Positions 9,046 to 10,413 of a stretch of 10,413 bases of DNA are shown piece by piece. Both the position numbers and the translations under genes were made by a program. Each line of letters starts with the position of its first letter. Positions within the stretch are counted from its first letter, which is position 1. Source of the stretch: a bacterium (GTDB taxonomy: Bacteria; UBA9089; CG2-30-40-21; SBAY01); assembly GCA_040757115.1 (NCBI GenBank), contig JBFLYA010000135.1:1-10413 (forward strand), written 5' to 3'. Below the pieces are notes generated by a model. That model did no database searches. It was not told the DNA's origin and worked only from the letters and a program-made list of their open reading frames with translations.

Positions 9046-9468
9046 ATGAATGATAACCAAGCATTCGAACCATTAATACTGACTTTTTGTTGCAACTGGT
9101 GTTCTTATGCCGGGGCAGACCTGGCAGGGATATCAAGATTACAGTATCCCCCTAATAACCGTATTATTCGGGTGATGTGTTCTGGAATGATTCACCCTAA
9201 TTTAGTCATCGATGCCTTAACTAAGGGTGCGGATGGTGTCCTTATCTGTGGCTGTCATATTGGTGATTGCCATTATCTTGAAGGAAATCTTAAAGCCCAA
9301 AGCAGGGCAGAGGCTATCCAGTTAATGCTGGATGACTTTGGAATTGAACAGGAGAGATTTAGGTTAGAATGGGTCTCTGCGGCTGAAGGACAAAGATTTG
9401 CTCAGGTGATGACAGAATTTACTGAGACGATAAAAAAATTAGGACCAAGCCCATTTTCGAGGAATTAA
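9046..9468 (+). CDS. mvhD: MvhD-type [2Fe-2S] electron-transfer subunit
   Basis: A 140-residue protein with the full MvhD (methyl-viologen-reducing hydrogenase delta) pattern. FCCNWCSYAGADLAG (14-28) with C15, C16 and C19 is followed by RIIRVMCSG (39-47, C45), and GADGVLICGCHIGDCHYLEGN (61-81) with C68, C70 and C75. The family passes electrons between a partner dehydrogenase (hydrogenase or formate dehydrogenase) and HdrA via a [2Fe-2S] cluster. ATG 9046 follows AAGGAG at 9033-9038, 14 nt after the hdrA stop, so it is co-transcribed with hdrA. No mvhG/mvhA or fdh gene follows; the electron donor may be NAD(P)H through the HdrA insertion, or genes elsewhere. Confidence 0.93.
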   Translation: MNDNQAFEPLILTFCCNWCSYAGADLAGISRLQYPPNNRIIRVMCSGMIHPNLVIDALTKGADGVLICGCHIGDCHYLEGNLKAQSRAEAIQLMLDDFGIEQERFRLEWVSAAEGQRFAQVMTEFTETIKKLGPSPFSRN

Positions 9469-9487: not shown

Positions 9488-10117
9488 ATGTTGGTTTTTG
9501 TTGATGAGTCTGGAGATACAGGATTCAAAATAGATACTGGCTCAAGTAAATATTTTGTTGTCTCTTTGGTTGTATTTGAGGATGAAGATGAGGGTTGTGC
9601 TTGCGATAACAGAATTTCGCTTTTGAGGAGAGAATTAGGATATTCAGAATTTTTTGAATTTCACTTTCAAAATAACTCAAAACGAATACGAACAAATTTT
9701 CTCCAGGCAGTAGCACCGTATAATTTCTTTTATTTTGGTATTGTGTTGAATAAAAACCCAAACAGATTATATGGAGAAGGATTTAAGGTTAAAGAGTCTC
9801 TTTACAAATACACCTGTGGACTGGTATTTGAAAATGCCAAACCATACCTGAAGGAAGCGATTGTTATTATTGATAAAAGTGGTTCATCCCTATTTCGTTA
9901 TCAATTGGCTAATTATTTAAAGAAAAAGATAAATACTAAAGAAATAGGTGTGATTAAAAAGGTAAAAATGGAATCATCAAAAAGTAACAATCTATTACAA
10001 TTGGCTGATTATGTAGCAGGGGTAATAAATAGAAAGGTTCAAAGGAAACAAGACGCTGTCTTTTATCATAAGTTTATAGCTACAAAGGAGATGTATGTTC
10101 AAGTGTGGCCAAAATAA
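9488..10117 (+). CDS. DUF3800 family protein (predicted RNase H-like)
   Basis: A 209-residue protein with DUF3800 hallmarks. The N-terminal VFVDESGDTG has D6, E7 and D10. FEFHF (56-60) contributes E57 and H59, VIIDKSG has D129, and NNLLQLADYVAGVINRK (167-183) has D174. These acidic positions match the spacing expected of an RNase H-like two-metal nuclease, though activity is unproven for the family. No signal or membrane segment is seen. ATG 9488 follows AGAGGA 7-8 nt upstream. The coding sequence is more A+T-rich than hdrA and mvhD, in line with an accessory gene. A convergent minus-strand RNA unit ends exactly over its stop codon; DUF3800 genes are known to lie near candidate structured RNAs (the DUF3800 RNA motifs). 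Confidence 0.88.
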   Translation: MLVFVDESGDTGFKIDTGSSKYFVVSLVVFEDEDEGCACDNRISLLRRELGYSEFFEFHFQNNSKRIRTNFLQAVAPYNFFYFGIVLNKNPNRLYGEGFKVKESLYKYTCGLVFENAKPYLKEAIVIIDKSGSSLFRYQLANYLKKKINTKEIGVIKKVKMESSKSNNLLQLADYVAGVINRKVQRKQDAVFYHKFIATKEMYVQVWPK

Positions 10118-10179
10118 AAACCTGAGTTCCTACCCTTTCTGGGACGCCCACCATAAAGGTGACTAATCAGAACTCAGGT
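10111..10179 (-). terminator. Intrinsic terminator formed by the small RNA's closing stem
   Basis: Read on the minus strand, the 10-bp outer stem is followed at once by TTTTTATTTT (10120-10111). On the plus strand the same stem is followed by GTAATTCC with no T run, so termination is predicted only leftward. The tail overlaps the DUF3800 stop codon (10115-10117). Confidence 0.7.
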
Positions 10180-10185
10180 AATTCC
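10111..10185 (-). ncRNA. Candidate small structured RNA beside the DUF3800 gene
   Basis: With the minus-strand promoter at 10192-10220, transcription should start near 10185 (GG) and end in the U-rich run at 10120-10111, giving about 75 nt. The outer stem is a perfect 10 bp, ACCUGAGUUC (10179-10170) with GAACUCAGGU (10129-10120). The 40-nt interior can fold as two hairpins: UCACC/GGUGG (10162-10158 with 10152-10148; loop UUUAU), and CCC/GGG (10143-10141 with 10135-10133). Alternatively it folds as one arm pairing ACCUUU with AAAGGGU (one bulge), capped by UGGG/CCCA. No start codon or ribosome site makes a plausible peptide. It converges on the DUF3800 gene and resembles the idea of DUF3800 RNA motifs, but I cannot confirm a family match. 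Confidence 0.7.
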
Positions 10186-10186
10186 A

Positions 10187-10204
10187 TATATATTATAATA
10201 TATA
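10187..10204. repeat. 18-bp perfect A/T palindrome overlapping the -10 element
   Basis: TATATATTATAATATATA is its own reverse complement, centred between 10195 and 10196. It contains the minus-strand -10 hexamer and a mirror TATAAT on the plus strand (10194-10199). It could be an operator or a bidirectional -10, but A/T-only palindromes also arise easily by chance. Confidence 0.6.
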
Positions 10205-10220
10205 ATTATATGTTTGTCAA
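10192..10220 (-). promoter_or_regulatory. Consensus sigma-70-type promoter with UP-like A tract
   Basis: On the minus strand, TTGACA (10220-10215) and TATAAT (10197-10192) both match consensus exactly with a 17-bp spacer (10214-10198). Immediately upstream is an A-rich run (complement of 10226-10240, A8-T-A6), placed as an UP element would be. The -10 lies inside an 18-bp perfect A/T palindrome (10187-10204). It drives the small RNA at 10111-10185. Confidence 0.82.
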
Positions 10221-10301
10221 GAGCATTTTTTATTTTTTTTAGTTAGATTAGAATAGGTTTCTGCCACAGAGCAACAAAGATTTGCTGTAACTATTCACCC
10301 T

Positions 10302-10333
10302 GTAGGAAAGTAGGAGAGTAGGGAAGTAGGAAA
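10302..10333. repeat. 8-bp tandem repeat (GTAGGAAA-like)
   Basis: Four tandem octamers lie at 10302-10309, 10310-10317, 10318-10325 and 10326-10333: GTAGGAAA, GTAGGAGA, GTAGGGAA and GTAGGAAA. The array is purine-rich and lies in the spacer upstream of the possible last gene. Its GGAAAGGG end could incidentally act as a ribosome site for ATG 10344. Confidence 0.75.
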
Positions 10334-10386
10334 GGGAAAGAAAATGAAAATGAATGAGAAGTTAGATGATTTAGACAACTTGTAGT

Positions 10387-10413
10387 ATGGCAAAAAAACC
10401 ATCATTTAGTGAT
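10387..10413 (+). CDS. Possible start of a further gene, cut by the window edge
   Basis: ATG 10387 opens a frame of nine codons (MAKKPSFSD) that runs off the window. It begins 2 nt after the TAG of a 13-codon frame (ATG 10344, MKMNEKLDDLDNL), which could be a leader peptide or chance. No clear ribosome site sits before 10387, so the call is weak. Between the small RNA promoter (10220) and here, the spacer holds the A-tract, the octamer array and nothing else I recognise. Confidence 0.25.

Follow-up and report, generated by a model that had tools for sequence, protein, structure and literature searches.

A DUF3800-IX small RNA gene and the compact DUF3800 gene that it faces are linked by position and by descent

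Background

The closest described relative of the locus reported here is an RNA family, DUF3800-IX of Rfam (RF02968), which is reportedly one of the DUF3800 motifs from the '224 candidate structured RNAs' survey. The locus lies near one end of a stretch of 10,413 nucleotides (the window) and shares with the family its sequence, its structure and its DUF3800 neighbourhood. Because the RNA is already in Rfam, the pairing of DUF3800 and RNA is not new; an earlier note on this DNA, which gave it as known that DUF3800 genes co-occur with structured RNA motifs, was right on this point, and the RNA is one of the catalogued motifs. The window is thus a further member of a catalogued, functionally unexplained RNA-protein pairing. 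RF02968 covers a core of 67 nt only, to which we add a conserved promoter, a 5' leader (GGAAUU or ACAAA) and a terminator overlapping the stop codon of the gene.

On the protein side, an RNase H-fold DUF3800 domain is common to the window protein and to the DUF3800 proteins of Cas12a2 and type VI-F loci (PMC10910872, PMC12669027). The latter are accessory proteins beside CRISPR effectors, associated with TPR domains in Cas12a2 loci (PMC10910872, PMC12669027), whereas the window encodes a stand-alone protein of 209 aa with its own small RNA. Type III toxin-antitoxin systems (ToxIN and its kin) also combine a nuclease with a small structured RNA, and the likeness would hold if the RNA of the window inhibits. 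They are defined by a tandem-repeat RNA upstream in one operon; in the window the RNA is free of tandem repeats and convergent instead of upstream, and the protein is predicted to have an RNase-H2 fold rather than the ToxN fold. OMEGA-type systems (TnpB, IscB) carry a variable guide beside a scaffold, and no hypervariable segment was seen in the RNA (A5). The toxins of type I systems are small hydrophobic peptides, unlike the 209-aa DUF3800 protein, which is predicted to be globular.

Results and Discussion

Anatomy of the DUF3800-RNA locus

The 209-residue DUF3800 gene described in the earlier note belongs to PF12686 (58.4 bits, E 1.7e-15; gathering cut-off 21 bits). On the opposite strand the note had described an A-tract, TTGACA, a 17-bp spacer, TATAAT, a 10-bp stem and a U tail over the DUF3800 stop, and all of these, the perfect consensus promoter among them, can be read in the window. 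The features are as follows.

9488..10117, plus strand: DUF3800 (PF12686) gene, 209 aa; predicted RNase-H2-like fold, with D6, E57, D129 and D174 conserved
10215..10220, minus strand: -35 element TTGACA of the small-RNA promoter, kept in relatives
10192..10197, minus strand: -10 element TATAAT, 17-bp spacer from the -35 element, kept in relatives
10205-10210, minus strand: extra TATAAT within the promoter spacer
about 10185-10186, minus strand: predicted transcription start of the small RNA
10180..10185, minus strand: conserved 5' leader GGAAUU (group A leader), outside the Rfam model
10116..10179, minus strand: DUF3800-IX small RNA (RF02968) with closing stem, three-way junction and two hairpins; 48.0 bits with Rfam, 63.7 bits with our own model, covariation
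10170..10179, minus strand: 5' arm of the closing stem, ACCUGAGUUC
10120..10129, minus strand: 3' arm of the closing stem, GAACUCAGGU
10111..10119, minus strand: terminator U-tail, UUUUAUUUU, overlapping the last DUF3800 codon (AAA) and the TAA stop at 10115-10117

The gene and the small RNA are convergent (head-on), with the end of the RNA overlapping the DUF3800 stop, and a transcript reading past this stop is fully complementary to the small RNA. The A-tract lies upstream of the -35 element. The two arms of the closing stem form a perfect helix of 10 bp which doubles as the terminator.

The window also holds other features. A 44-nt direct repeat (80%; 9359-9402 and 10243-10286) flanks the DUF3800-RNA unit. 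Its first copy lies in an intact FlpD-like gene, while the second, a remnant of a broken FlpD gene, directly precedes the RNA promoter; the repeat could mark a past duplication or insertion. Positions 10287-10413 belong to a dispersed repeat beginning GTAACTATTCACCCTG, of which the genome contains at least 8 other copies of at least 72 bases (91-100%) and many shorter parts. Between 741 and 4527, TA-like pairs (DUF4258/MqsA-like, AbiEii-like, HicB/HicA and UPF0175/DUF3368) are set among Hdr-type genes. The earlier description of the locus as rich in TA modules is borne out by these HicAB, UPF0175/DUF3368 PIN, AbiEii-like and DUF4258/MqsA-like genes.

The RNA family and its covariation

When the window was compared with all 4227 Rfam families (cmscan) a single match was returned, RF02968 "DUF3800-IX RNA", spanning the full model (1-67) with 48.0 bits (E 5e-08). 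The scan proposed in the earlier note yields a score above the gathering cut-off of 36.8 bits. Pairing was seen in 83.3% of the cells of a MAFFT alignment made from 23 relatives, as against 65.5% after shuffling, and two-sided changes were found in 109 cells compared with 44.7 in shuffles. None of 500 shuffles reached the covariation score of this alignment, so that the covarying stem which the note had expected next to related DUF3800 genes is indeed present. The MAFFT alignment, which is not fitted to the model, showed two-sided changes at 17 of the 22 pairs; for 38 model-aligned copies (36 distinct) the figure was 19 of 22, in an alignment which is fitted to the structure and so leans towards it. 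The three-helix structure of DUF3800-IX is thus conserved, with covariation, across 36 distinct sequences.

A hairpin repeated through the genome, away from DUF3800, would have spoken against a specific pairing. Our own covariance model (R1) found one copy of the RNA in the 4.3-Mb genome, that of the window adjoining DUF3800, among the best 150 of 607 candidates, which were the ones scored. A search of the same genome with RF02968 gave no match, although the window itself scores 48 bits; it was an insensitive first look and is not counted as absence. An 84% match elsewhere (C106:4359) was rejected, since it comprises a similar strong promoter only and the RNA is absent.

The promoter is conserved along with the RNA. 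Across 35 IX copies the mean of the best promoter matches was 10.0 of 12 letters, compared with 7.3 in mononucleotide shuffles, and matches of at least 10 letters occurred in 24 of the 35 copies but in 1.3% of shuffles. The end of the -10 element lies 5-6 nt before the leader in most IX relatives, which locates the likely 5' end of the RNA.

Pairing of gene and RNA among relatives

Relatives of the protein (E<=1e-12) were detected in 14 of 379 Patescibacteria genomes, and in 13 of these 14 the RNA adjoined the gene. Wherever a patescibacterial genome had both the gene and a IX RNA, the RNA was convergent at the 3' end of the gene (13/13). The same arrangement was found in 12 of 13 newly found loci, the remaining one having a different RNA. 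One RNA (L047) scored 30.3 bits with Rfam, below the cut-off, and 49 bits with our own model. In the fourteenth genome, G070 (locus L043), the RNA differs in sequence, while promoter, closing stem, terminator and position are alike. The RNA also accompanies the relatives that were detected by sequence in Portnoybacteria, Microgenomates, Doudnabacteria and one Manganitrophaceae genome; four of these five new loci matched RF02968, L026 among them falling just below the cut-off at 36.0. L027 lacked an Rfam match and its RNA was found by our own model, which had been built from sequences that included it. No relatives were found in the viral contigs and phages searched. The earlier note had taken protein and RNA to form one unit, and this part of its proposal stands, given the 13/13 convergent arrangement and the agreement of RNA classes with protein clades described next. 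Its further suggestion of an RNA antitoxin or RNA-guided system is unproven; neither a guide-like variable segment nor a type III repeat array was seen.

When the five RNA classes were mapped onto a maximum-likelihood tree of 49 DUF3800 proteins, they required 4 changes, the minimum possible, as against 23.5 with shuffled labels; assignment to classes preceded tree building and used the letters of the RNAs, judged by eye for the V-like class, and six rows labelled 'other', five of them long branches, were left out of the count. IX-A (GGAAUU leader) and IX-B (ACAAA leader) each occupied one side of a branch. Proteins of the phylum of the window, of Patescibacteria and of Nitrospirota are mixed within IX-A. 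As this group spans phyla, the protein and its RNA seem to have crossed phylum borders jointly; the agreement of RNA class with protein clade extends over at least three phyla.

A common anatomy of compact DUF3800 genes

Two further full DUF3800 genes in the genome of the window (C71 and C86) both lack an Rfam RNA. Each is nevertheless faced by TTGACA, 17-18 nt, TATATT or TATACT, and an RNA whose 10-bp closing stem and U-tail lie at the 3' end of DUF3800. Since this layout resembles that of the window, the anatomy of the unit (convergent promoter, stem and U-tail) was scored at 113 DUF3800 gene ends, mostly from Nitrospirota, Patescibacteria and the phylum of the window, and at 148 other gene ends from the same loci. 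A score of at least 40 was reached by 31 of 43 compact proteins (190-235 aa), by 10 of 65 longer ones (235-500 aa) and by 6 of the 148 controls, a background of 4%. The p-value of 5e-20 for compact genes against controls is descriptive, because the threshold and the length bins were set after the case scores had been seen and some cases are related. Several compact genes below the threshold have an RNA that is clear by eye or by model (L042, L044, L092, L102, L103, L114, L118, L145, L149). The promoter-RNA-terminator anatomy is accordingly near-universal for compact DUF3800 genes (31/43 by the strict score), including those whose RNAs have no Rfam family.

Some of the RNAs fall in RF02964 (V) or RF03075 (VIII). 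Others form classes of their own. N1 (AGUAARUCCUCGU...ACGRGG) lies beside DUF3800 genes at five Nitrospirota loci (L123, L127, L132, L140, L142), all of which were scanned against Rfam and gave no match. N2 is represented by two loci, L144, scanned without an Rfam match, and L149, read by eye only. No unit was visible in a single reading of a DUF3800 gene on a Leptospira plasmid. Plasmid relatives from Mucilaginibacter and Adhaeribacter were set aside as belonging to the longer proteins. We did not find the general anatomy, the clade-matched and unclassified RNA classes or the RNase-H2-like fold in the literature searched, and part of this may stand in the original motif survey.

RNAs that outlive their gene

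In five of the 379 Patescibacteria genomes (G025, G042, G101, G139, G150) the RNA was present and the gene was not detected, while no genome had the gene without an RNA unit (5 versus 0, p 0.06). Compared with G087, G101 has lost the DUF3800 gene: the flanks are about 94% alike and the RNA is identical over 106 bases, the identity beginning at the former stop codon. G139 retains just the final DUF3800 codons (EIYVQIWPK*), and in G002 (L018) an IS66-like transposase gene interrupts DUF3800 and the RNA is kept. The genome of the window itself contains, on contig C20, two 52-aa DUF3800 remnants, each with a DUF3800-V RNA; they lie in a 1.15-kb stretch that occurs twice, about 10 kb apart, with 94% identity (L021, G000:C20). 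RNA outliving protein resembles the behaviour of an antitoxin. This retention is suggestive only, because an RNA of about 75 nt is a smaller mutational target, the p-value is 0.06 and the promoter in G101 is weak (7/12). For the last reason the G101 RNA may be decaying, which weakens its retention as proof of selection.

Some candidates were discarded. A 29-bit RNA match in G365, which falls within a long ORF (L078 516-2390), was put down to chance, and a second RNA copy in G002, at a contig end and with an equal score, is probably an assembly overlap. Second copies without a facing DUF3800 3' end occur in L016, where the copy is nearly identical to the first, and in L042 and L048. Direct RNA repeats flanking the gene in these three loci might be read as a mobile element, which we rejected as there was no target-site duplication and there were no common ends; in L042, moreover, the leaders of the two RNAs are of different groups.

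A second structured RNA, with a closing stem, CGCAAG and an ACTAG motif, adjoins an orphan DUF3800-IX RNA in L074 (1324-1394) and L079 (66-133), and has no Rfam match. In L074 it is preceded by TTGACA-17-TAAAAT, and both RNAs are situated in the gap that splits a type ISP restriction-modification gene in two. Genes also lie downstream of three DUF3800-less IX RNAs, in the same direction (L076 691-1443, L079 253-1461, L073 903-1424): two encode Fic proteins and the third is an unknown frame of 174 residues.

The DUF3800 protein

An AlphaFold2 model built from 18 aligned relatives had a pLDDT of 87 and a pTM of 0.87. The top three Foldseek matches of the predicted fold are RNases HII. In VIA-align it reached Z 12.2 to RNase HII 1eke (163 residues, rmsd 3.2); ranks 1-20 were all RNases H2/H3, whereas RNase H1 and other RNase-H-like proteins scored Z 6-7. 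RNase HII/RNase H2 structures are therefore the best solved matches (Z 8 to 12), and the likeness extends to a DE motif after the first strand. The differences are an identity of 11-17% and a match of the third and fourth acidic residues by order only. Residues invariant in the 18 aligned proteins include D6, D10, E57, D129, Q171 and D174; some IX-B proteins have D at position 7. D6/E7, D129 and D174 could be metal ligands, as judged from their order along the fold rather than from superposition. A profile search of PDB sequences returned no solved RNase H2, for which reason we call the protein RNase H2-like and do not file it as an RNase H2. The model thus predicts an RNase-H2-like fold. An RNase H fold had been reported for DUF3800 before (PMC10910872, PMC12669027); our comparison adds that, among RNases H, those of type 2 are specifically the close ones. 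PADLOC gave a weak match (22 bits) to the candidate defence protein PDC-M04A.

What the RNA may do

Anatomy, covariation, co-inheritance and fold establish by computation that a separate, strongly promoted and structured RNA gene is tied, through its position and its descent, to a protein with a nuclease fold. The reading we prefer, to which we assign a probability of about 0.42, is that protein and RNA make up a two-component unit which moves horizontally. The RNA would be the dedicated partner of the RNase-H2-like nuclease, acting most probably as its inhibitor and less probably as a cofactor that activates it. A constitutive promoter of the sigma-70 type would drive an RNA of about 75 nt (DUF3800-IX), which would fold into a closed three-way junction with the closing stem as terminator, and the convergent gene would supply the predicted RNase-H2-fold nuclease. 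The abundant RNA would keep the nuclease inactive; if its supply dropped, for instance through phage host shut-off or loss of the locus, the nuclease would be freed. The pair would be inherited and transferred as a compact two-gene unit. Within this scheme, the RNA probably binds the DUF3800 protein in trans as a dedicated partner. That the abundant RNA inhibits the predicted nuclease, as an antitoxin would, is put forward tentatively; the layout is unlike that of known type III systems, which we count against it, and the association of DUF3800 with CRISPR loci fits a cofactor or processing role of the RNA equally well (PMC10910872, PMC12669027).

Were the RNA instead to serve the nuclease as a scaffold, or as a cofactor that activates it, the pair would be an RNP effector, perhaps in defence. 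The RNase-H fold, a strongly conserved, structured RNA that has a strong promoter and tracks the protein, the DUF3800 proteins adjoining Cas12a2 and type VI-F effectors (PMC10910872, PMC12669027) and the weak PDC-M04A match would all suit such a role. The core of the RNA is fixed, however, and variation is confined to covarying stems and the loop of the second hairpin; the lack of a guide-like variable segment argues against sequence-guided targeting. Some RNAs also persist without the gene, and on balance we think this role somewhat unlikely. Regulation in cis, either as antisense to read-through mRNA in a type I-like manner or by convergent transcription, is suggested by the head-on layout and by the complementarity of a read-through transcript to the RNA. 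Antisense pairing, though, needs neither a covarying three-way junction nor fixed unpaired bases, second copies of the RNA occur without a facing DUF3800 3' end (L016, L042, L048), and the protein differs from the small hydrophobic peptides of classic type I systems, all of which makes control in cis improbable. Finally, the stem and U-tail at the end of the RNA are terminator-like, and one might see in them a mere intrinsic terminator, or an unrelated sRNA that lies beside DUF3800 by chance. The Rfam match, the conserved promoter, the clade-matched RNA classes and the background of 4% at other gene ends already refute this, short of a systematic artefact, and leave it barely credible.

Returning to the RNA as partner of the nuclease, we raise as a conjecture, at somewhat less than even odds, that the compact DUF3800 proteins all belong to a single, widespread class of RNase-H2-like toxins or defence nucleases under RNA control, in which every clade has a structured RNA of its own. 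The Rfam DUF3800 motifs and the unclassified RNAs would then be variants of a single promoter-RNA-terminator gene evolving with the protein. The common anatomy of the Rfam DUF3800 motifs, their presence beside nearly all compact DUF3800 proteins, their diversification along with these and the RNase-H2-like protein that they face unite several orphan motifs in a single protein-RNA system that can be tested, and that may be a novel type of nuclease under RNA control among poorly cultured bacteria.
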